Part shown: one piece after another, positions 5,092-24,467 of the stretch
How positions within the stretch are numbered: the stretch's first letter is position 1
How the letters are laid out: every line of letters begins with the position of its first letter
From: a virus
Length of the DNA stretch: 29,429 bases
Direction: 5' to 3' (one strand)
IMG/VR virus record: IMGVR_UViG_3300033182_000953
Coordinates: 1 to 29,429 of that record
Made by a program: the position numbers and the translations under genes
Notes under the pieces: generated by a model
Database searches by the model: none
Seen by the model: the letters and a program-made list of their open reading frames with translations, nothing else
Told to the model about the DNA's origin: nothing

Positions 5092-5684
5092 TTTTACAAT
5101 CATTACTTAGTGGATTAGTATTGTTCACTTCATTTAGTGCAAGAACACCTAATGATGATACAATCACCAAAGATGATTATGAGATTGCTCTTGGATTTAA
5201 GAGTGAGAACATTTATCTTAAACGAGATTGGGAACGAGAGTTAGGACAATCTTATATTGATGATGAGATATGGTTTGAATGGGAACCTAAGAACTTTTAT
5301 TTCAAACCACAATATGTTAATAAAACATCTCGTGATTTGAAATATGGTAAGGCTGATATTCGTTATCGTAATGGTGATTATTCTTTAGGATATACAGTAT
5401 TATATTCTGAGGATAAATTTGAAAGTGGTATCTCAATGGGTATTCAAAAGAAAAAAGAAATCAATGGTAGATTTTCTATGGAGGCTAAATGGGATGGTTA
5501 TTATTTTCGTGATGAGTTATTAGGAATTGATAGATTTGATATGGAAGATTATGCTCAATTAAATTGGAAAATTTCTGATAAGTTGATACTTACTAATATC
5601 TTTGATTACAATGATATCAAAGGTAGAAAATATTACAAGTTTAAAGTAGGAGTAGAATATGAACTTGGCAGAAATAAAAAGTAG
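5088..5684 (+). CDS. Secreted beta-rich protein, outer-membrane-barrel-like
   Basis: This 198-residue product begins with a short signal peptide (MILQSLLSGLVLFTSFSA, cleavage plausible after A18). The rest is a run of alternating polar/hydrophobic strands with aromatic residues: YEIALGFKSENIYLKRDWE, WFEWEPKNFYFKPQYV, YSLGYTVLYSEDKF, SGISMGIQKKKE and the last strand YYKFKVGVEYELG. Strand-turn-strand patterning with Tyr/Trp girdles is typical of small 8-strand outer-membrane barrels. A final aromatic residue is missing, because the protein ends GRNKK. A phage product sent to the periplasm or outer membrane could block superinfection, alter receptors or aid lysis. The signal peptide and strand pattern are seen; the barrel and role are inferred. 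The next gene starts inside its 3' end. Confidence 0.65.
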   Translation: MILQSLLSGLVLFTSFSARTPNDDTITKDDYEIALGFKSENIYLKRDWERELGQSYIDDEIWFEWEPKNFYFKPQYVNKTSRDLKYGKADIRYRNGDYSLGYTVLYSEDKFESGISMGIQKKKEINGRFSMEAKWDGYYFRDELLGIDRFDMEDYAQLNWKISDKLILTNIFDYNDIKGRKYYKFKVGVEYELGRNKK

Positions 5685-5817
5685 ATTAGAAGAAGCATAT
5701 AATACAGAAGATTGGAATCTTATAGAAGATTTAATTGATATATTAGATACCCATATCACAATAGGTGAAGGTGATGAAGTTTTTGAGTGGGAAGATGACC
5801 ATGATGAAATTGATTAA
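5659..5817 (+). CDS. Small acidic protein, 52 aa
   Basis: ATG 5659 lies inside the last 26 bases of the barrel-like gene and follows AGGAG. The frame runs 52 codons to TAA, ending just three bases before the tmRNA. The product is helical and very acidic (IKSRLEEAYNTEDWNLIEDL, then EWEDDHDEID), without membrane segments. It resembles short acidic phage proteins of unknown role; charge mimicry of DNA is a guess only. Confidence 0.6.
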   Translation: MNLAEIKSRLEEAYNTEDWNLIEDLIDILDTHITIGEGDEVFEWEDDHDEID

Positions 5818-5820
5818 TAT

Positions 5821-6163
5821 GGGGCCGACTGGTATTGACAGGTATTGGAAGGGATTGAGTGCAACGAGGTTTGAACAAGACCTACTAAAAAAGGTTCACT
5901 ATTGTTTAATTGGCACAGAGTTCAATTACGCTTACGCTTAAGTCGTAAGCCGTCACACCATGACACCGATAATGGAATGTGGCGTCGTAATCGGTAAGAC
6001 CACTCACTTCAGGTTTAGAGTCTAAATGAAATCTCAGTTAAACCATTCTGAACAAAATGGGACATGGTGGGTTGTTGGTGACTACCGATTTGGAACCAAC
6101 TAAGTTGTGAATGACTTAACTTGGAAGATAGGCTGGACGCGGGTTCAATTCCCGCCGGCTCCA
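5821..6163 (+). ncRNA. ssrA: tmRNA (one-piece), tag GTEFNYAYA
   Basis: This is a complete transfer-messenger RNA, which rescues stalled ribosomes. The 5' GGGGCCG pairs with CGGCTCC (6156-6162) to give a 7-bp acceptor stem whose third pair is G-U, the alanyl-tRNA synthetase identity element. A6163 is the discriminator. The next bases are CTA, so the CCA tail is not encoded and must be added. The T arm is GCGGG-TTCAATT-CCCGC (6139-6155), and a reduced D-arm-like ACTGGTATTGACAGG follows the 5' strand. The reading frame resumes at about 5912 (GGC) and reads G-T-E-F-N-Y-A-Y-A then TAA (5939-5941). The stop sits in the loop of a 7-bp helix GCTTACG/CGTAAGC, as in other tmRNAs. Complementary blocks downstream (such as ACCGAT/ATCGGT) fit pseudoknots. 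It is one-piece, not permuted. The tag end YAYA differs from the common ALAA. Confidence 0.95.
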
Positions 6164-6185
6164 CTAAAAAAAATAGAGGTTACAA

Positions 6186-6506
6186 ATGGTTATAGAATAC
6201 TTATTATTAGGAATATTATCACCGATAATTTTAAACTTAATGCATCTGATGGTTGGATTATATGTAGTGGTACAAAGAGGTAATGTTTTATCTTTAGGTT
6301 TTTCGGCTTTGGGTTTTCTTACTAAATCCATGGGTATGATATTTTTAGTTTACTTGGGAGTAGCAATACTACACTTAGATATTAAAATATTTATACCATT
6401 GATAACTTTCTTTTGGTTCTTTACTCATGTGGTTGAGGGATTTGTTATCCAACATTATATGAGACAGAACGAAAGTGAATACATAAAAAGTATACAAATA
6501 AAATGA
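6186..6506 (+). CDS. Small polytopic membrane protein, 106 aa
   Basis: The gene starts 22 bases after the tmRNA with an AGAGG ribosome site. The product has about three membrane segments: residues 3-31 (VIEYLLLGILSPIILNLMHL and on), about 42-64 (LGFLTKSMGMIFLVYLGVAI) and about 69-92 (FIPLITFFWFFTHVVEGFVI), followed by a polar tail. There is a vague likeness to the small AtpI-type subunits that sit beside ATP synthase, but I do not consider it assignable. Its stop overlaps the next start (ATGA), so it is coupled to the membrane-anchored 3D-domain protein and may partner it at the inner membrane. Function unknown; a lysis or envelope role is possible. Confidence 0.7.
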   Translation: MVIEYLLLGILSPIILNLMHLMVGLYVVVQRGNVLSLGFSALGFLTKSMGMIFLVYLGVAILHLDIKIFIPLITFFWFFTHVVEGFVIQHYMRQNESEYIKSIQIK

Positions 6507-7090
6507 ATTTTAACAACATTAGAAGATATTTATACATGACTATTGTAAAGGATTTCCTTAACTTTAGGAATTTTGAAATGAACAAATTAAAACTATCAAT
6601 AATGATATTAATACCAATGTTGGTATTTAATACTTTTGTTTGGACAATATTTTTTGAAAAGTATAAGGAAAATATGTTATTAATGACATCTGAACTTCAG
6701 AAAGAAAACGAGAGATTAAATTCTCTTGTAGAGGAGTTCAAATTAGAGGGAATGGAAGTGACGGTAACTATGTATCACCCTGTTAGTCGTCAGACAGATT
6801 CTACACCGAACATTCTCGCGGATGGAACGCGAATAAGAGTCCACAAGGCAAGTAAATATAAATTTATTGCGGTGAGTAGAAATCTTCTGAAACGATATGG
6901 TGGATTTTTAGACTATGGTGACTTCATTGTTCTAAAAGGTACAGATGGTAAAGATGGTGTGTATCAAGTTAAAGATACGATGAATAAACGATTTGTGAAT
7001 CGTATTGATATCTTGGAATCACCTGATATCAAACCTTACAAATTTGATAGTGCAAAAATAGTAAAGACAAATTTAGTATTGAATAATTAA
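6503..7090 (+). CDS. Membrane-anchored 3D/double-psi beta-barrel protein
   Basis: This 195-residue product has an N-terminal cytoplasmic part, one membrane span (about 31-51, LSIMILIPMLVFNTFVWTIF), a short coiled coil (about 52-82, with KENERLNSLVEEFK) and a C-terminal domain at about 86-172. That domain begins VTVTMYHP and contains ILADGTRI, FIAVSRNLL, a GD-turn (Y138-G-D) and DTMNKRFVNRIDI. This pattern is the 3D domain, a double-psi beta-barrel also found at the C-terminus of MltA and in RlpA-like proteins. Such domains act on or bind peptidoglycan glycan strands using conserved Asp residues; D158 is the candidate here. The topology would place the domain in the periplasm. It could assist cell-wall degradation or remodelling at lysis. 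The family is fairly secure; catalytic activity is not demonstrated. Confidence 0.75.
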   Translation: MNFNNIRRYLYMTIVKDFLNFRNFEMNKLKLSIMILIPMLVFNTFVWTIFFEKYKENMLLMTSELQKENERLNSLVEEFKLEGMEVTVTMYHPVSRQTDSTPNILADGTRIRVHKASKYKFIAVSRNLLKRYGGFLDYGDFIVLKGTDGKDGVYQVKDTMNKRFVNRIDILESPDIKPYKFDSAKIVKTNLVLNN

Positions 7091-8643
7091 TGAAAAAACA
7101 AAAATGGTTTTATGAAAAGTCTAACATTGCAAGTAAAGACAATCCAATCAATATAACCTATGATGAATTACTTCACAAAAGTGATTCAGAAGTAGAAGAG
7201 TGGATTGATAATTTACGAGACTATGTTATTACCCAATGGGATGAGAATGGTCAACCACCAGTTATTGGTCAGAATGAAAGTGAGATAATCAGTAATTGGA
7301 GAAAGTTATTTGGGTATGATGTTGAAAGTTTTTTTGATGAAAAAACAAAAGTAGTCAAGAACTTCAATAAGTATGCAAGTGGAGTGAATCAATTCTTTCC
7401 TACAATGTTAAAGACAAAGATTAGTAGTGGTGTAAGTAGTGAGGGTGCTACTTCTATATATGACCACTTCAAAGATGATGACCTACGAGATACATTTAAG
7501 AAGGCAATGTTAAGGTCATTGTTTAAAGACTCAATGTATACTTTTAGTTTGAGTGTTAAGGTTAAGGAAATGGGTGTGAGTAATGTATCTGATTTCTTAA
7601 CACAAACCAACCAAGACCCAACTTATGGAATCATGGTGGTGAGACAAAGTGATACTAAACCTGTAGATATAGATTCACAATATCTTATATTGAAAAAAAG
7701 TGAAGTGGAAATGTATTTATCTACAGGATGTTTAACAGAACAAAACCTTAGAACAATTGGTGATGAATTAAAAGATAGTTATGAGTTAAAGAATGGTGAT
7801 AAAAGATATTATCATTATTATATTAGAAAGTATAAAAGAAAACAAAGAATTTTTCCAAGTGCTCTTCAAGTATTTAGATTAGGACTTGGACAACCAGCAG
7901 TAAACTTTCCACCCTTGACCGCGAAGTTCTTGTATGAACATTTTACCAAGCATATCAAGGACTCTAATTTAATTATAAGCGATCCGTCAAGCGGTTGGGG
8001 TGGAAGAATTTTAGGTGCTATGAGTAGTGATAGAAATATTCACTATGTTGGTATTGACCCAAATCCTGATAACGAGGGTAGATACGAGGCAGTAGCAGAC
8101 TTCTATAATGAACATTGTTTCAATCCAAATCCATTTTGGGGTAAGGCGGAACCTAACACATACGAAATATTTAGAGAGGGTAGTGAAGAAGTTGGGAACA
8201 ATCCTAAGTTTCAGAAGTATAAGGGACGCTTGGATATGGTTTTCACATCACCACCGTACTTTAACAGAGAACAATACTCTCAAGATGAAAATCAAAGTTT
8301 TAAAAAGTTCGGTACATATGATGATTGGAGAGATAACTTTTTGAAACCAACCTTAACAACAATGTATACATATTTAAAACCTGATAGATATTTGTGTTGG
8401 AACATTGCAGATATCAAAGTAGGTAGTGATAAATACATTCCATTAGAACAAGATAGTATAGATATCGTGGAAAGTCTTGGTGGTGAATATCAAGGTATTT
8501 ACAAGATGTTGATGACGAGAATGGTTGGGATAGATGCATCCAATGTAAAGAATTCAGTAATGATAAAATCACATCCACTTAGTCGTGGTGGTGATTACTT
8601 TAAGTTTGAACCAATATTGATATTTTATAAACCAAAGGAGTGA
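7090..8643 (+). CDS. DNA methyltransferase, motif order I then IV
   Basis: The start overlaps the previous stop (TAATG). The protein has 517 residues. The first 270 have no domain I can name and are partly helical, probably target recognition or a phage-specific module. A SAM-binding motif I follows as DPSSGWGGRILGA (about 298-310), then an acidic post-strand (GIDPNPDNEG), and the catalytic motif IV TSPPYFNREQYS (S387-Y390). SPPY is typical of N4-cytosine or N6-adenine methyltransferases. Motif I before IV is gamma-like. The substrate is presumably phage DNA. Codons around motif I are atypical (AGC, CCG) and include the only GATC found in the window. The next gene begins six bases after the stop. 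The target site is unknown. Confidence 0.85.
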   Translation: MKKQKWFYEKSNIASKDNPINITYDELLHKSDSEVEEWIDNLRDYVITQWDENGQPPVIGQNESEIISNWRKLFGYDVESFFDEKTKVVKNFNKYASGVNQFFPTMLKTKISSGVSSEGATSIYDHFKDDDLRDTFKKAMLRSLFKDSMYTFSLSVKVKEMGVSNVSDFLTQTNQDPTYGIMVVRQSDTKPVDIDSQYLILKKSEVEMYLSTGCLTEQNLRTIGDELKDSYELKNGDKRYYHYYIRKYKRKQRIFPSALQVFRLGLGQPAVNFPPLTAKFLYEHFTKHIKDSNLIISDPSSGWGGRILGAMSSDRNIHYVGIDPNPDNEGRYEAVADFYNEHCFNPNPFWGKAEPNTYEIFREGSEEVGNNPKFQKYKGRLDMVFTSPPYFNREQYSQDENQSFKKFGTYDDWRDNFLKPTLTTMYTYLKPDRYLCWNIADIKVGSDKYIPLEQDSIDIVESLGGEYQGIYKMLMTRMVGIDASNVKNSVMIKSHPLSRGGDYFKFEPILIFYKPKE

Positions 8644-8648
8644 CGGAA

Positions 8649-9962
8649 ATGAAATTTAGAGATTACGATGTAGAGATACCAAAACCATATCATAATGGTA
8701 AACAATGGATTTATGATGATACACCAACATATCAAAATTTATTAGATTGTTTTATGGAAACACAAAGACCAGAGGGTGAGAAAAAAATTCGTGAACAATA
8801 TGGTAACACGAGATTACGAGACCCATTTAGAAAAATAAATAAAATGGACTTACAATTAGCATTTGACCATGTAGAGGGTCGTGAGGGTCATGCATATGAA
8901 GTTGATTGGGTTGAGAACAACGATGGTAAAATTGTTGCATGTATTTTGTATTATAATATGAAGAACATAAAAACACAATTTAAAAAAATTAAATCCTTCA
9001 CAGGAGCAGAATATAAATTAAATTGTAAAACCGATGCATACATTCGTGAGATTGCATGTTATCCTGGTAATGAACAACACTTATATGATTTGATAAAAAG
9101 ACATGAATCAGAGGGTGGTGGTTTCTTTGATGAGGGAACAACCGTAGTTGAGTGTGATATGCAAAACAGAAGAATGGTTGGTATACTAAGAGACTTAGGT
9201 TATGAAAGAAGAGATAACTTGATTACGAGCTTTGCAGATATGTATGGTTATTGGTTCAAAGGAGAACATACAGGTGAACTTGCAAAATCACAAGAAATCT
9301 CATTACAGAGATTAGACTTAGATGTTCAAGATACAGACCCATTGATGGAACAAATCTTTGCACTACAAGAAGACTTTGCTAACCACTATAGTAATTACAA
9401 CAAAGGTAATTCATGGAGTGGTATTGTGGTTCGTGGTTATGGTGGTAAAGAAGACTTTATTATCAAACCTGCCGAGATGAATCAAAAGTGGAGAAAAGAA
9501 AATGCAGAAAAGTTAGAGTGGAAAGTAGAAGATACACCACTTAGAGAAAGACTTACTGAAGTAGAGAAGTTTGCTAAACTCTTACCATTTGAACATGAAA
9601 GAATTCGTATCTTGAAATTAAGTCAAGGTGAGGGTGAACTTGAAAGACATACTGATAGACAAGATGTAGAGGCTGGTATTGGTGATGGACAATGGGCAAG
9701 ACTACACTTTCCATTAAAGACAAATCCAAAGGTTGAGTTTACTCAATGGAATTGTGATGGTAGTGTTACTAAATCAAAAATGGGTAAAGGTGAGTTGTGG
9801 TATTTAGATATGAGAAAACCACACACTGCTATTAATTTTGGTGAAGAGGATAGATATCATTTAATCATAGATGTTAAGTCAGGACCAGAATTAAGAAAAT
9901 GGTTAGTGGATAGTAGTTACAAATATCCAAGTGACAAACAACCAGATTGGTATGTTGATTAA
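8649..9962 (+). CDS. GNAT-like plus aspartyl/asparaginyl beta-hydroxylase-like fusion
   Basis: ATG 8649 is chosen because AAAGGAG lies 8 bases upstream. An in-frame GTG at 8640 has no room for a ribosome site. The product has 437 residues. The N-terminal part (about 65-195) looks like an acetyltransferase fold, with the strand KIVACILYY, the strand YIREIACYP and, at its end, a helix-turn ECDMQNRRMVGILRDLGYERR like the GNAT NxxAxxxYxxxGF signature. The C-terminal part (about 305-420) has the cupin-type dioxygenase signature: ELERHTDR (H334, D336), a strand ARLHFPLKTNP, and KPHTAINFGEEDRYHLIIDV with distal H392 and R402. This is the layout of aspartyl/asparaginyl beta-hydroxylases. The fusion lies between a DNA methyltransferase and an early promoter. 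The target (protein, small molecule or DNA) is unknown. Confidence 0.72.
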   Translation: MKFRDYDVEIPKPYHNGKQWIYDDTPTYQNLLDCFMETQRPEGEKKIREQYGNTRLRDPFRKINKMDLQLAFDHVEGREGHAYEVDWVENNDGKIVACILYYNMKNIKTQFKKIKSFTGAEYKLNCKTDAYIREIACYPGNEQHLYDLIKRHESEGGGFFDEGTTVVECDMQNRRMVGILRDLGYERRDNLITSFADMYGYWFKGEHTGELAKSQEISLQRLDLDVQDTDPLMEQIFALQEDFANHYSNYNKGNSWSGIVVRGYGGKEDFIIKPAEMNQKWRKENAEKLEWKVEDTPLRERLTEVEKFAKLLPFEHERIRILKLSQGEGELERHTDRQDVEAGIGDGQWARLHFPLKTNPKVEFTQWNCDGSVTKSKMGKGELWYLDMRKPHTAINFGEEDRYHLIIDVKSGPELRKWLVDSSYKYPSDKQPDWYVD

Positions 9963-10049: not shown

Positions 10050-10829
10050 ATGAATCTAACAGAACAACAACTATTGGACAATTACACCAAGTTAAGAAAC
10101 ATTGTGAATGAAACATTTACAGGTGAACGACTTGATAACTTAAATAAAATGTATGACTTCTTTGAAGAAAGAATTATCGTTGCTCCCGCAAGTGGTAAAC
10201 CAAATTATCACTATGCATTTGCAGGTGGTTATGTTCTTCATGTGTTACACTTAGTGGACACTGCAAGGAAGTTAACAAAAGTATATGAATCTATCGGTGC
10301 AGTCATTGACTATACTGATGAGGAATTAGTTTTTTGTGCATTACATCATGACTTAGGTAAAGTCGGTGACTTAGAACATGAGTATTACTTGGTTCAAGAA
10401 GATGATTGGAGACGAAAGAAACTCAACGAGTGGTTTACACAGAATCCTGAAATGCAGTTTATGGGTGTTACAGATAGAGCATTGTATTTACTACAACACT
10501 TTGATGTTAAAGTATCACAATTAGAGTGGTTGGCAATCAAAGTTAGTGATGGTATGTATGATGATGCAAATGTTCAGTATTTAAAAACATTTAAACCTGA
10601 ACATAGTTTTCATTCAAGTTTACCTTATCTTATCCATTGGGCAGACCACATGGCAACAAGAGCAGAGTATACTGAATGGAAATACTCAGAACAGAAATCT
10701 ACTGAGAAAGTAAATAAATCTGTTACTAACATCAAACAGGCAGTAGGTAAACAAGTAAAAGAAAAAGTAGAGACACAACCAAGTGCATCTGCTAAGGATT
10801 TATTTGATGAGTTATTCGGAAAAAAGTAG
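10050..10829 (+). CDS. HD-domain phosphohydrolase
   Basis: This 259-residue product begins at ATG 10050 with AAAGG upstream. HD-superfamily metal ligands are visible in order: YVLHVLH (H64 or H67), ALHHDLGK (H100, D101) and HWADH (D199). HD enzymes hydrolyse phosphate esters, including dNTPs, nucleotides and (p)ppGpp, with a bound divalent metal in the cytosol. Residues 205-245 are a charged, helical linker. The last ten (SAKDLFDELF, then GKK) look like the short hydrophobic/acidic tails that phage polymerases of the T4/RB69 type use to bind the sliding clamp. The gene has its own promoter. The downstream methyltransferase start lies inside its 3' end. Family sure; substrate unknown. Confidence 0.82.
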   Translation: MNLTEQQLLDNYTKLRNIVNETFTGERLDNLNKMYDFFEERIIVAPASGKPNYHYAFAGGYVLHVLHLVDTARKLTKVYESIGAVIDYTDEELVFCALHHDLGKVGDLEHEYYLVQEDDWRRKKLNEWFTQNPEMQFMGVTDRALYLLQHFDVKVSQLEWLAIKVSDGMYDDANVQYLKTFKPEHSFHSSLPYLIHWADHMATRAEYTEWKYSEQKSTEKVNKSVTNIKQAVGKQVKEKVETQPSASAKDLFDELFGKK

Positions 10830-11478
10830 TATCTATAACGAAGATTGTCTTATAACTTTAGGTAGGGATTTAGAATACGATTATGTATTCTTTTCCCCAC
10901 CTGAGTATAGTGAGTTGGGATTAGAACCAATTAAAGATGATGATAAATATTTTGGTTGGATGGAAGAAGTTTATAGTAAGTTTAATCCAAGAAAAAATAT
11001 TGTAACAATTGTGATTAGTGATAGAAGATTTAAAAGAAAGACAATACCAAAACATCAGATTTGTACAAATATTATGAAAAATTTAGGTTATGATTTATTA
11101 AATCAAAAGATATGGGAAAAGTCAAGAGAGATAAATATGTTTAGATACAATTATGCTTTTGTTATGTCTTATGCACGAAAGAGTTTTAAATCAAAAAACA
11201 CAAAATTATTTAAATATGACACATGGTATCATCCACATCATTCTTACAAAGGGTATTCATATAATATGCCTCAAGAAGTTGCAGAAAGATGTATAGAGAA
11301 TTATACTGAAGAGGGTGACATTGTGTATGACCCATTCATGGGGATAGGAACTACGGCACTTGCATGTAATAAATTAAATCGTAGGTATTTAGGTTCCGAG
11401 ATAGATAGTGAAACATTTGAAATGGGTATGAATAGAATTAATCAATCAACAATAGGGAGTATAGAGAAATGGTATTAG
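10807..11478 (+). CDS. DNA methyltransferase, beta-like motif order
   Basis: ATG 10807 is preferred over ATG 10783 because AAGGA precedes it by 7 bases. It overlaps the HD gene by 23 bases. The 223-residue product has motif IV first (VFFSPPEYSE, S30-E33), then motif I near the end (DPFMGIGTTALACNKLNRRY from D175, followed by LGSEID). This permuted order is that of beta-type N6-adenine or N4-cytosine methyltransferases. The aromatic residue normally closing the catalytic tetrad (S/D-P-P-Y/F/W) is replaced by Glu, with Tyr next, which may change activity. There is no separate target-recognition domain beyond the central 130 residues. Presumed to modify phage DNA; the recognition site is unknown. 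Confidence 0.82.
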   Translation: MSYSEKSSIYNEDCLITLGRDLEYDYVFFSPPEYSELGLEPIKDDDKYFGWMEEVYSKFNPRKNIVTIVISDRRFKRKTIPKHQICTNIMKNLGYDLLNQKIWEKSREINMFRYNYAFVMSYARKSFKSKNTKLFKYDTWYHPHHSYKGYSYNMPQEVAERCIENYTEEGDIVYDPFMGIGTTALACNKLNRRYLGSEIDSETFEMGMNRINQSTIGSIEKWY

Positions 11479-19448: not shown

Positions 19449-22400
19449 ATGGCAGAATACGGATTTAATAAACAAGAGAAAGAACAATATTATAAACCTG
19501 AAAGGGTGTATAGTAGTTTTGGAAGAGATAGTGGAGACTATATTGTCTTAGAGGTTTACCAAAATGATGAACTTGTGCTCACAGATAAATTTAATCCTGA
19601 TATCAATGCAACTGGATTTTTAGATTTAAATATAGGACAACATTTAAGAGATAATGGATTATCTGATGGTGAGTATATTGTACAATATAGATTTTTAAGA
19701 AAATTAGCAGGTAGAGACCATTTAGTAATGGTAAATGGAAATGGTGAATTATATGCAGGTAAAGTTATCACAAGAAATATAAATGATGAAACAAGATATT
19801 ATACTGCACCACCACCAAATGCATCTGCACAATCCTTAACAGATAATCCACCACAAGAATTATTCATACGAGATTTAAAATATTCAATTGATAAAATTAG
19901 TGGTGATAGGACAGAAGTCGTAGTTAAAACACAAGATTTTAAAAACCGAACATATCATAGAAACTTTAGAGAAATGAATACTATAGTGAAGTATCAACCA
20001 TTTCTTACTGCAGATAGTGGAGCAAATGGTTCTATTAAGTTTGATGAGAATCAACCAGGAGTATTAGTAGCAAATCTACAAGATAATGATAGAGGGTTTA
20101 CACAAAATATGGTTGGTGCAGAAATAAGAATACCAAGAATATTTGAAAAAACAATCACAAGGGAATATCTTGAATCAGTATTAACAGAAATACAGGTACC
20201 AGTAGAAGTACCACCTGATTTACCACCACCAAATCCTCCACCAAGTTATAATGACCCACCACCTGAACCAGACCCACCACCTGAACCAGACCCACCACAA
20301 GATGACCCACCTGAAGATGATGGTTGGAGTGATTTTGATTATGATGGAGTTTGTTTCCATCCTAATACAAAAGTAACATTAAGTAATGGTAGACAGATTC
20401 CAATCAAGATGATGAAGATTGGTATGAAAGTCAGAACTGATAAGGGTGTTGCAAGAGTAAAGAAAGTCATAAAGAGTGAAAGAGGTTTTGGTGACTTGAT
20501 GGTTAAGTATAAAAACCTTATTGTTACCGACCACCATCCAATCAGAACAAAAGATGGTTGGTTCATGTCAAGAGAGATTGGTAAAGTATATTATCAGAAA
20601 CCACCTTTTAAAGTATGGAACTTAGTATTAGATAAATACCATACAATTTTTGCAAACAATATAGTTGCAGCGACTCTTGGTAAATGGAAGACTACTGAGA
20701 CTAAACATTGGCAAGAAAGATTTCTTGAAGAGAGAAATAGATTTAGATGTGCACAAGCTGCATACATTGATGTTGATGCAACAGGTAATGCAGATTTAGG
20801 TGGAGGTGGTTCAGACCCATTTGCACCAGATAGTGGTGATAATTTGGGTATGTATGGTGCAAGCAATAATAACACATATCAAAATGAAGTTATTGTAGAT
20901 GATATAAATCAAGAGATTTTAGGACATGCAGAGATAGAACCTTTTAGAGAGTTTATTCTAAATACACCAGTACCTGAAGGAACACAAGATTTCACAACTG
21001 AGATTGTTGAAAGTTGGGTTACAAGATTTGAAGATGAGACATTTCATTTTGATTATGTTGCGACAATTACAGAAGTACTTGATTATAATAAAGTAAAAGT
21101 AAGTTTAACATACCAAGATGCTGCAGATAATGTTGGACATGACGGCCCAAGTGGTAGAGATTTAGACCATTATGGTTGGAATGTTTTATATGAGAAAAAC
21201 AATATAGAAAGATTTAAAACCTATATGGTTTGTGATAATGATTATTATTTAATCACAAATGAAAACAAAGAGTTTTTTGATTCTCAAAATGAAAAAAGAG
21301 TATTTAAATTAAAACAACCATTATCTGATGATACACAAGAATTAGATAAAGTATATTTTGTAGAGAAAAGACTACCATCTCATGTTGAGGTAGTTAGATT
21401 AATACCATTTATTGATGAAGACCCAGATGGATTGTTTTTACAATTACCTAATTTAAATTCAGTTGATAATCCTATAAACTTTAGGTCAACAAGATTAGAA
21501 ACACACAATACTTTATTAGGAAGTGATGATTTACTTAATAAAGATATTGAACGAAAATTAATAAGTGGTAGTTTATTAGATATACAAGTCAACACAGAAT
21601 TTAATAGAACATCAGTTGATTTAAATCAACAGAACGATGATATTGGTTTTGGTAATTTCATACATTACTCAAGTGCAGAAAGAAGAATAAGAAATTTTAA
21701 AAAGAAAATTGAGCTGATTGAAGGTTATACTAAAACAAGTCAATCATTAGAACCTATTTCATCTTCAGTAGATAAAATTACATCTGTTGAAAATCAAAGA
21801 CAACGAGTAATTAATTCTTTTGACCCGTTTGAACATTATATGTATTTTGAAAGTTCTTCTTATGTTAGTTCTTCTTTAGGACAATATCATTCAAATACAT
21901 GGCCAAAAACAAATTCATCTAAACCATATACATTATTACACTCTACAGGTTCCGAATCTGTAACTTGGTTTGATAATATGATATTAAGTTCATCAACATA
22001 TGACCATGAAAATCCTGATAGACTTGTGAATAATTTACCTTTACATGTGGTGGATGATTCTCAAAATAATCCATTCTTAGAATTTATGGATATGACAGGA
22101 CAACAATTTGATGAAATATGGACTTATACAAAACATCTAACAGATGTCAACAATAGGTCTGCGAATATTTCTGAGGGTATATCAAAAGATATTGCATCAG
22201 AATATGCAAGGTCACTTGGATTAGAACTTGTGAATGGTAATGACTTGATGATATTACCAGAATATCTTGAGGGTAAAAATCCTGATGGTTCTACAAAATA
22301 TGAATCACCACAAGAAAAAGTAACAGAAGAAATATGGAAAAGACTATTAAATAACTTACCTTTCTTTGTCAAATCAAAGGGTAGTGTGAGATGTCTAAAG

Positions 22401-24467
22401 GGTATTTTAAATTGTTATGGTATTCCAAGTTCAATTTTAAGAGTGAGAGAATATGGTGGCCCAAGTAATCAATCAAGAGTTAGTTATGAAGTAAAAAGAA
22501 AGTTTACATATGCATTGGACTTTCATAGTTCACAATATGTAAAAACTTTATGGACAACAGATACAAATGGTTTATATCCACAAACCTTAGAACTTAGATT
22601 TAGAACACCATATAGTGCTGGTAGTTCTGGTAGTATGGTGATTGCACAAAAAGAAAACGATTGGGCGATACACTTAAAAGATAATGGTACTAATGATGAT
22701 TATGGATATTTGAAATTTAGTGTTAGTGCCTCAACAGGTGTTTATGGAATAACATCATCACTACAACCATTTTACAATGATGATATGTGGAGTGTGATGT
22801 TAACAAGAGTTAGTGCAAGTGGTGCACAAATGACAGATGACTTGATAACAAGAAATGTAAAATATGAATTAACTACAAAACAATATGATGCCACAAGAGA
22901 AAAGATTAAATTCCAAACAAGTTCAAGTTTAACAACAGGACAAGGACACGCAAGTAGTAGTGCTATCAATGCAGCATTTAGTGGTAGTGGTGGTTCAAAG
23001 TTTATTTATCTTGGTGGACAAAATACAAACTTTGGTTCAAGATATAGTGGTTCTTTAATGGAATATCGTTTATGGTCAGAACCATTAAGTCAAAGTATTT
23101 TTAATAATCATGTTAGAACACCAAAATCATATAATGGAAATACATATAGTTCTTCTTATCATGATTTATTAGTTAGATATCCACTTGATAATAATGTTGA
23201 TTTATCATCTACATCTTTTGTGAGTAATGTTGCAAACAAACAAAATTATTACATATCTTCACAAATGGATACATCAGGTTCTGTAAATGGATTTACATCA
23301 AATACATTTAGAAGTTTAGTTGATAAAGAACAATTAAGAGTTCCGAACATTGGCCCAAGTCGTAGAAATGCAACTAAAATTAGAGTTGAAGATACGACAT
23401 TGACTGGTAATTTAAATCCTGATGTTAGTAAAGAACAATCATCACAAGATTTTGCACCGATTGATAGTGAAAAGGTAGGTATTTATTTTTCACCAGTTGA
23501 TGTTGTGAATGAAGATATCATGTATAGTATTGCAGATTTTAATTTTGATGATTACATTGGTGACCCAAGAGACCAATACAAACAAAACTATAGAGGTTTA
23601 CAAAAATTAAGAACTGAGTATTGGCAAAAGTATTCAAGTCCTAATAATTTTTGGGATTATTTAAGGATACTTACATATTACGACCCAAGTGTATTCACAC
23701 AATTAAAGAATTGGGTTCCTGCGAGAAGTAAGGCCACAACAGGTATATTAATTGAACCAAATATTTTAGAAAGAAGTAAACAAGTAATTGGTGATAGACC
23801 TACATTCAATAATCGTTTTTATGAAAATGCAAGTGAGTATGAAGATGGTGTACCTGTGACAAGATTTATTAGTGGTTCAAAAGAGGATGCATACTTTGAT
23901 ATAGGTGGTGAAACACCATATTATGAAAGTGAATTAAATGGAGGATTTCATGATAATAGTGGTTCACTCGGTGCATTAGGTGAACCTACATTAGTTAAGT
24001 TGGGTGTTATAGACCCAAAAACACCACACTCTTACAATTATGCAACTGCAAGTGTAACATTTGGTGGAGAAGGTGTAACCTTTGGTGAAGTATTACAACC
24101 AGTAATTACAGGTTCAAGATTATCAGAACATAATCAAGAAAAAGTATTCTTTTATTCATCAAGTTTGAGTGCATCAAGAGGACTATATTATAGTTCTTCA
24201 TTTGTACCAAGTGAACACCAAAGTGTTTATTATGATACAAGATTATTTAGGTCATTTATTGGTGGTTCTGTAACAAGAGACGATGGACAAACAAGTCATC
24301 CTACATCAAGTAAATCACCATTTATTGGTAGTGTGGCTATCGGTAGTTCTCAGTTGACTGCACAATCAAATACTATTGATGGTGGAGAACCAGTTGAAAC
24401 AACCACAACAACACCAACACAATTGATAACAAAAGAACCAGGAGATTCTAAACTTAAAGTAAATTAA
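19449..24467 (+). CDS. Giant baseplate/tail protein with internal Hint (Vint-like) domain and lectin-like domain
   Basis: This 1672-residue product is the largest complete one in the window. Visible parts in order are: a beta-rich N-terminal region (1-250); a Pro/Asp/Glu-rich linker (about 250-291); a Hint domain (302-411) with Cys302 and T360-x-x-H363; a beta-rich middle; a tail-protein-like segment (about 870-1010, including LNNLPFFVKSKGSVRCLKGI) that recalls P2-I-type baseplate proteins; a concanavalin/LamG-like segment (about 1017-1265, with YPQTLELRFRTPYSAGS and GGSKFIYLGGQNTNFGSRYS); and a long Ser-rich C-terminal part ending in a Thr-rich tail. Position after gp6 matches T4 gp7/gp10. 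Hint domains cleave or splice proteins, so this one may be processed at residue 302. The lectin-like part could bind host glycans. All domain calls are by eye. Confidence 0.8.
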   Translation: MAEYGFNKQEKEQYYKPERVYSSFGRDSGDYIVLEVYQNDELVLTDKFNPDINATGFLDLNIGQHLRDNGLSDGEYIVQYRFLRKLAGRDHLVMVNGNGELYAGKVITRNINDETRYYTAPPPNASAQSLTDNPPQELFIRDLKYSIDKISGDRTEVVVKTQDFKNRTYHRNFREMNTIVKYQPFLTADSGANGSIKFDENQPGVLVANLQDNDRGFTQNMVGAEIRIPRIFEKTITREYLESVLTEIQVPVEVPPDLPPPNPPPSYNDPPPEPDPPPEPDPPQDDPPEDDGWSDFDYDGVCFHPNTKVTLSNGRQIPIKMMKIGMKVRTDKGVARVKKVIKSERGFGDLMVKYKNLIVTDHHPIRTKDGWFMSREIGKVYYQKPPFKVWNLVLDKYHTIFANNIVAATLGKWKTTETKHWQERFLEERNRFRCAQAAYIDVDATGNADLGGGGSDPFAPDSGDNLGMYGASNNNTYQNEVIVDDINQEILGHAEIEPFREFILNTPVPEGTQDFTTEIVESWVTRFEDETFHFDYVATITEVLDYNKVKVSLTYQDAADNVGHDGPSGRDLDHYGWNVLYEKNNIERFKTYMVCDNDYYLITNENKEFFDSQNEKRVFKLKQPLSDDTQELDKVYFVEKRLPSHVEVVRLIPFIDEDPDGLFLQLPNLNSVDNPINFRSTRLETHNTLLGSDDLLNKDIERKLISGSLLDIQVNTEFNRTSVDLNQQNDDIGFGNFIHYSSAERRIRNFKKKIELIEGYTKTSQSLEPISSSVDKITSVENQRQRVINSFDPFEHYMYFESSSYVSSSLGQYHSNTWPKTNSSKPYTLLHSTGSESVTWFDNMILSSSTYDHENPDRLVNNLPLHVVDDSQNNPFLEFMDMTGQQFDEIWTYTKHLTDVNNRSANISEGISKDIASEYARSLGLELVNGNDLMILPEYLEGKNPDGSTKYESPQEKVTEEIWKRLLNNLPFFVKSKGSVRCLKGILNCYGIPSSILRVREYGGPSNQSRVSYEVKRKFTYALDFHSSQYVKTLWTTDTNGLYPQTLELRFRTPYSAGSSGSMVIAQKENDWAIHLKDNGTNDDYGYLKFSVSASTGVYGITSSLQPFYNDDMWSVMLTRVSASGAQMTDDLITRNVKYELTTKQYDATREKIKFQTSSSLTTGQGHASSSAINAAFSGSGGSKFIYLGGQNTNFGSRYSGSLMEYRLWSEPLSQSIFNNHVRTPKSYNGNTYSSSYHDLLVRYPLDNNVDLSSTSFVSNVANKQNYYISSQMDTSGSVNGFTSNTFRSLVDKEQLRVPNIGPSRRNATKIRVEDTTLTGNLNPDVSKEQSSQDFAPIDSEKVGIYFSPVDVVNEDIMYSIADFNFDDYIGDPRDQYKQNYRGLQKLRTEYWQKYSSPNNFWDYLRILTYYDPSVFTQLKNWVPARSKATTGILIEPNILERSKQVIGDRPTFNNRFYENASEYEDGVPVTRFISGSKEDAYFDIGGETPYYESELNGGFHDNSGSLGALGEPTLVKLGVIDPKTPHSYNYATASVTFGGEGVTFGEVLQPVITGSRLSEHNQEKVFFYSSSLSASRGLYYSSSFVPSEHQSVYYDTRLFRSFIGGSVTRDDGQTSHPTSSKSPFIGSVAIGSSQLTAQSNTIDGGEPVETTTTTPTQLITKEPGDSKLKVN
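20253..20298 (+). repeat. 18-bp tandem repeat encoding the Pro-Glu-Pro-Asp linker
   Basis: The 18-base unit GACCCACCACCTGAACCA occurs at 20253-20270 and 20271-20288, and a third copy matches for 10 bases. It encodes repeats of D-P-P-P-E-P before the Hint domain. In-frame unit number could vary between relatives and change linker length. Confidence 0.8.
20352..20681 (+). other. Hint (Vint-like) domain coding segment
   Basis: The region encodes residues 302-411 of the giant protein. C302 begins CFHPNTKVTLSNGRQIPIK, the first Hint block. LIVTDHHPIRTKDGWF holds the TxxH block (T360, H363). VWNLVLDKYHTIFANN then AATLG closes the fold. The final block lacks the His-Asn and Cys/Ser/Thr of splicing inteins. 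Its N-x-VLD...H...N...TLG pattern matches Vint-type Hint domains instead. No homing endonuclease is inserted. The domain is embedded and in frame. Confidence 0.8.

Follow-up and report, generated by a model that had tools for sequence, protein, structure and literature searches.

Transfer-messenger RNA (tmRNA, ssrA) genes carried by phages are commonly regarded as duplicates of the host's own. The uncultivated marine phage analysed here, a 29,429-base IMG/VR record taken whole (the window), encodes at positions 5821-6163 a candidate tmRNA whose tag ends in YAYA, and the locus raises two questions: whether the gene specifies a complete and functional RNA, and whether its tag copies the host signal or gives rescued proteins another fate. 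The reason why phages carry tmRNA at all thereby becomes testable, as ribosome release alone versus control over the tagged protein.

The locus matches the tmRNA family RF00023 of Rfam on the + strand, where the RNA elements, the 52-aa ORF, the 195-aa protein gene and the anchor methylase gene described below also lie, from 5821 to 6166 and over model positions 1-374 of 374 (Infernal, 89.7 bits, E 7.5e-34; gathering score 47). This is the sole Rfam match in the window, and ARAGORN reported no tmRNA gene there. The original prediction of a complete ssrA gene with a G3-U pair, a T arm and a tag helix, at the coordinates given for it, is thus confirmed by the full-length match and by the sequence. 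The acceptor stem is formed by GGGGCCG (5821-5827) and by CGGCUCC with the discriminator A (6156-6163); all seven pairs form, and G3 pairs with U, the mark of alanine identity. The CCA of the mature tmRNA is not encoded, the discriminator A6163 being followed by CUA. The T arm, GCGGG-UUCAAUU-CCCGC (6139-6155), shows double changes at 4 of its 5 pairs among relatives. The first stem of pseudoknot 1, AGGUU/GACCU (5867-5871 with 5879-5883; alignment columns 53-57/65-69), covaries, and the second, UGAAC/GUUCA (5872-5876 with 5894-5898), was read from the alignment, where it is exchanged for UGAGU/ACUCA and UGGGU/ACCCA in relatives.

The A at position 5908 lies at -4 of the resume codon and is the equivalent of E. 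coli A86, mutation of which dramatically reduces or abolishes activity (PMC2481249). From the resume codon GGC (5912-5914), the tag frame reads GTEFNYAYA (5912-5938), exactly as had been predicted, up to a UAA stop codon (5939-5941), and its position and length are the same in the 17 short-tag relatives. A few relatives use AGC, and one GAC, as the resume codon. The possibility that resumption at another codon yields a standard tag was also examined; no LAA-type frame was found, and a shifted frame reads AQSSITLTLKS. The AYA codons and the stop are enclosed by a nearly invariant hairpin, CUUACG/CGUAAG (5931-5949; columns 118-123/133-138).

Taken singly, the sequence folds modestly better than its shuffled versions (z = -1.96). 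RNAalifold, applied to the 17 short-tag genes, gave 62 pairs, 33 of them with compensatory double changes, including pairs of the T arm, of P2 and of the first stem of pseudoknot 1. Among 78 unique relatives, the third acceptor pair is G-U and the -4 base is A without exception (78/78 each), while the full acceptor stem forms in 77. It is therefore the covariance model, the covariation and the invariance of G3-U and A(-4), and not the single-sequence fold, that make the evidence for a tmRNA strong. Judged from sequence, 5821-6163 is a complete and structurally conserved one-piece tmRNA, with the marks of a functional gene rather than of a decaying fragment. A two-piece (permuted) tmRNA is ruled out since the linear model matched from its first position to its last, and so is an ssrA fragment left at a prophage attachment site, since the gene is complete and no integrase was found among the scanned window proteins.

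The gene fits tightly between protein genes, the gaps of 3 and 22 bases noticed at the outset corresponding to an upstream ORF that ends at 5817 and a downstream ORF that starts at 6186. Homologues of the upstream 52-aa ORF (5659-5817) adjoin tmRNA in many loci, and a 195-aa protein further downstream (6503-7090; phrog_21574) is likewise syntenic. Placement in an early block was checked by looking for promoters, and no signal above chance was found. The DNA methylase-like protein encoded at 7090-8643 (PF01555, 5.5e-8) served as the anchor for collecting relatives: it led to 70 viral loci and a 5'-end pattern to 10, the loci being partly redundant. A tmRNA above the RF00023 cut-off was present in 35 of the 49 records searched. 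Among the loci where 2.4 kb or more of upstream sequence is available and which belong to the group sharing the adjoining 195-aa protein or the tmRNA, all on uncultivated marine phage contigs, the tmRNA precedes the methylase in 33 of 35, at a distance of 14-2,397 bases; where the methylase is 46-48% identical and the 195-aa neighbour is absent, there is no tmRNA. Rarity, which the original prediction had also asserted, is thus contradicted within this clade, and tmRNA is known from phages generally, having been reported in 402 of 18,146 phage genomes (PMC9004378). When complete genes were extracted, 82 unique tmRNAs were obtained, 78 of them with a readable tag of this family.

Several other features of these genomes may be recorded. 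Beside the methylase, the product of 8640-9962 has an aspartyl/asparaginyl beta-hydroxylase domain at its C-terminus (PF05118, 3.4e-9). The window carries two separate N6/N4 DNA methylase-like genes (7090-8643 and 10783-11478) with no evident restriction partner. A 1,672-aa protein of the tail/baseplate region (19449-24467) contains at residues 301-412 a Vint-type Hint domain (PF14623, 1.5e-15), the fold by which inteins and hedgehog proteins process themselves. In three relatives (L091; L029, 4872-5379; L134, 4583-5139), tRNA-Thr(tgt) and/or tRNA-Tyr(gta) genes lie a few to tens of bases from the tmRNA. Three short-tag tmRNAs (L012, L032, L042) have a 3' pseudoknot region common to some long-tag genes, which suggests, from the sequences compared, recombination between tmRNA alleles.

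The tags of the family fall into two classes. The short class comprises 17 tags, all of 9 residues and all ending in AYA: GTEFNYAYA, GTQFNYAYA, GNQVNFAYA (once with the GAC resume codon), GNTANFAYA, GNTANYAYA, GNTYNFAYA, GNYANVAYA, GNMSNFAYA and GTYSNVAYA. In the sister group the tags have 34-42 residues (one containing Ns reads 30), for example GDNSLDGLDIDWHLAEYDYSPMVPVSNDQPSYAYAA. They share a conserved core, GD-SL-GL--DWHLA, and most of them end in QP[ST]YAYA(A); in the tmRNA database, 10 aa is the commonest length (PMC11915505). Conservation of the long-tag core is partly by construction, most members of the class having been found by a pattern for the DWH region. The DWHLA core is also present in loci found through the methylase, including one that falls outside the pattern (L050, GEALLAGLIIDWHLAEYD...). 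In 17 long-tag sequences found independently of the tag, differences within the first 15 codons number 385, 361 and 695 at the first, second and third codon positions, and there are 187 conservative replacements, compared with 81 in each of the two other frames. This bias and these replacements indicate that the tag frame is translated from GGC onward. The idea that the long tag copies a phage protein was rejected: in a set of 2,084 ORFs, the sole DWH matches appear to be the tmRNA frame, and the same is probably true of the few ORFs with YAYA-type endings. Searches of the PDB and Pfam with the long tag gave nothing significant.

The claim that the tag lacks ALAA is borne out by the whole family. 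The 62 distinct family tags end in AYA (29), YAA (27), ANA (2), VYA (2), YAS (1) or AFA (1), and none in the canonical LAA. The Bacteroidota tags called by ARAGORN, 71 in number, end in LAA (51), MAA (19) or FAA (1), and never in YA; they come from 72 loci in a sample, not a census, of 395 genomes and represent the better-scoring part of the list. All nine tags from other phyla end in -AA. Since all 17 short-tag and most long-tag relatives retain the AYA or YAYA(A) end, it is a trait of the clade, and since three other phage tmRNAs (G002, G004, G047) keep ALAA, the change is specific to it. A 287-kb jumbo phage contig (L109) carries a tmRNA with the flavobacterial-type tag GVNNYALAA and tRNAs nearby.

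What holds the tag end in place is less simple than the peptide suggests. The hairpin stem CUUACG/CGUAAG overlaps the codons GCU-UAC-GCU, and tyrosine within the last five tag residues is encoded by UAC in 134 of 134 cases. At other positions of the tags the counts are 49 UAT and 43 UAC, and in the genes of the window 320 UAT and 79 UAC. In tags ending AYAA the alanine codons covary perfectly, GCA/TCA going with GCU or GCC with GCG, with no mixtures. RNA structure thus constrains the tag end, and conservation of the peptide cannot be credited to a protease alone. From here it is one step to supposing that structure is the main force, and that the peptide end is a by-product tolerated because the phages need only ribosome release. 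We think this unlikely, since bacterial tags end in -AA with L, M or F just before, the rare variants AFA and ANA alter bases 1 and 2 of the codon while keeping C3, the same peptide end recurs in the short and long structural contexts, and the core of the long tag is under coding constraint. If, on the other hand, the peptide is what matters, AYA or AYAA could be a rerouting signal, poorly recognised by host ClpXP and read instead by another protease (Lon-like) or by a partner of the DWHLA tag, so that the phage would separate rescued chains from the host pathway. In favour of this are the lack of Leu at the ALAA position in all 62 phage tags, set against -AA in 71/71 Bacteroidota and 9/9 other tags, the existence of long tags with a conserved core, and the precedent of Mesoplasma florum, whose longer tag is orthogonal to that of E. 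coli and is read by its cognate Lon (PMC3439342), in a lineage devoid of ClpXP (PMC8138137). Rerouting is nevertheless somewhat doubtful: AYAA still ends in AA, and 32 tmRNA-bearing records, all of them fragments, yielded no homologue of ClpP, Lon or SspB. The original suggestion that the tag redirects rather than copies trans-translation is accordingly not shown, given the available contigs, which yield no protease or adaptor gene, and the placement of the AYA codons in a hairpin with invariant UAC. That the clade has evolved its own tags (9-aa AYA; 34-42-aa with the DWHLA core and YAYA(A)) to send rescued proteins to a fate other than that of ALAA, such as another protease or a binding partner, is a tentative proposal. 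In ending, and in the sister group also in length, these tags differ from every bacterial version sampled, which is why the phages may handle unfinished proteins differently from their hosts.

The origin of the gene bears on a last alternative, namely that it is functionless and in decay, having been picked up from a host ssrA through recombination. It is known that ssrA serves phages as an integration site and that they can carry it as a copy or in part (PMC11590407), but the full length, the compensatory changes, the invariant functional positions and the synteny across divergent phages make this highly improbable, as do the absence of an integrase among the scanned proteins and the failure to find a cellular tmRNA with such a tag. 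A pattern of the short tag and its leader, scanned over 84,980 species, gave 10 matches, none a tmRNA, and a scan of the 395 Bacteroidota genomes for the long tag, run without a positive control, gave none. When cultivated relatives were sought, the long tag was likewise missing from 50,697 phage records; a long-tag tmRNA query gave no match, and the tmRNA of the window matched only short stretches of ssrA 3' ends. Judged by the baseplate protein, the closest isolates are Microcystis phage Mel-JY01 and Flavobacterium phage immuto, which have no full tmRNA. Comparing the tag with bacterial tags, as proposed to suggest a host, gave a divided answer. The Gly resume codon, the leader and the 9-aa length resemble flavobacterial tags, which is Bacteroidota-like; however, Shine-Dalgarno-like sites precede 46% of the window ORFs against 7% in phage immuto, which argues against a typical flavobacterium, and a tree of full-length tmRNAs places the phage clade on a separate branch and not inside Bacteroidota.

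The account that we favour, and consider fairly probable, is that of a working phage tmRNA of the one-piece form, which would use host SmpB for ribosome rescue, the tagged proteins probably still being cleared with an altered specificity. Expression, charging, the use of host SmpB and rescue during infection are predicted from sequence. Host AlaRS would charge the RNA with alanine through G3-U, the CCA tail and SmpB coming from the host. No SmpB (PF01668) was found in 36 tmRNA-bearing contigs, all fragments, so that the predicted function depends on the host. The charged tmRNA would enter ribosomes stalled on truncated mRNAs, translation resuming at GGC under the control of A(-4), and A-GTEFNYAYA would be appended before termination at UAA. 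Ribosomes would in this way return to use during the shutdown of host gene expression. As to the fate of the tagged proteins, our guess is that host proteases probably remove them, with a specificity unlike that for the host ALAA tag. In E. coli, plaque formation by lambda-immP22 needs tmRNA for ribosome release only and not for its tag function (PMC2481249), which offers a straightforward explanation for its presence in a phage.

These phages form a coherent clade that has retained the RNA machinery in full and changed the tag end consistently, the tag of the sister group having grown to 34-42 residues. Phage tmRNAs were already known (PMC4131195; PMC9004378); the AYA-ending tags and the 34-42-aa tags with a DWHLA core appear to be new, neither being described in the papers to which the search was confined. 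In L083-L112, about half of the phage tmRNAs go unreported by ARAGORN, which also calls the tag start too late in long-tag members. Surveys based on it would therefore miss about half of the family and misplace the long-tag starts, so that phage tmRNA is undercounted.

Compared with the bacterial ssrA of RF00023, the phage RNA has the same G3-U acceptor, T arm, pseudoknot 1, tag frame set by A(-4), tag hairpin and long P2 helix, but its D-region reads GGUAUUGAC instead of GGAUUCGAC, ARAGORN misses it and its tag ends in AYA. With flavobacterial tmRNA (GENNYALAA) it shares a GGN Gly resume codon after a TAA(T/A)T leader, a 9-aa tag and an N-Y-A stretch, whereas the flavobacterial tag ends in LAA and the full-length tmRNAs lie on separate branches. 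Bxz1-type mycobacteriophages and Bacillus phage G also show that large phages can carry a complete tmRNA (PMC4131195); those are cultured phages of Actinobacteria and Bacillus, and the likeness drawn is in carrying the gene. Melnitz and the pelagimyophages are likewise marine myophages encoding a tmRNA (PMC9004378), but theirs is permuted, two-piece and of alphaproteobacterial type, while the one described here is one-piece. The Lon-read tag of Mesoplasma florum resembles the phage tags in having an aromatic residue among its last three and in being longer, although it is cellular and belongs to a bacterium without ClpXP. It ends in NYAFA.
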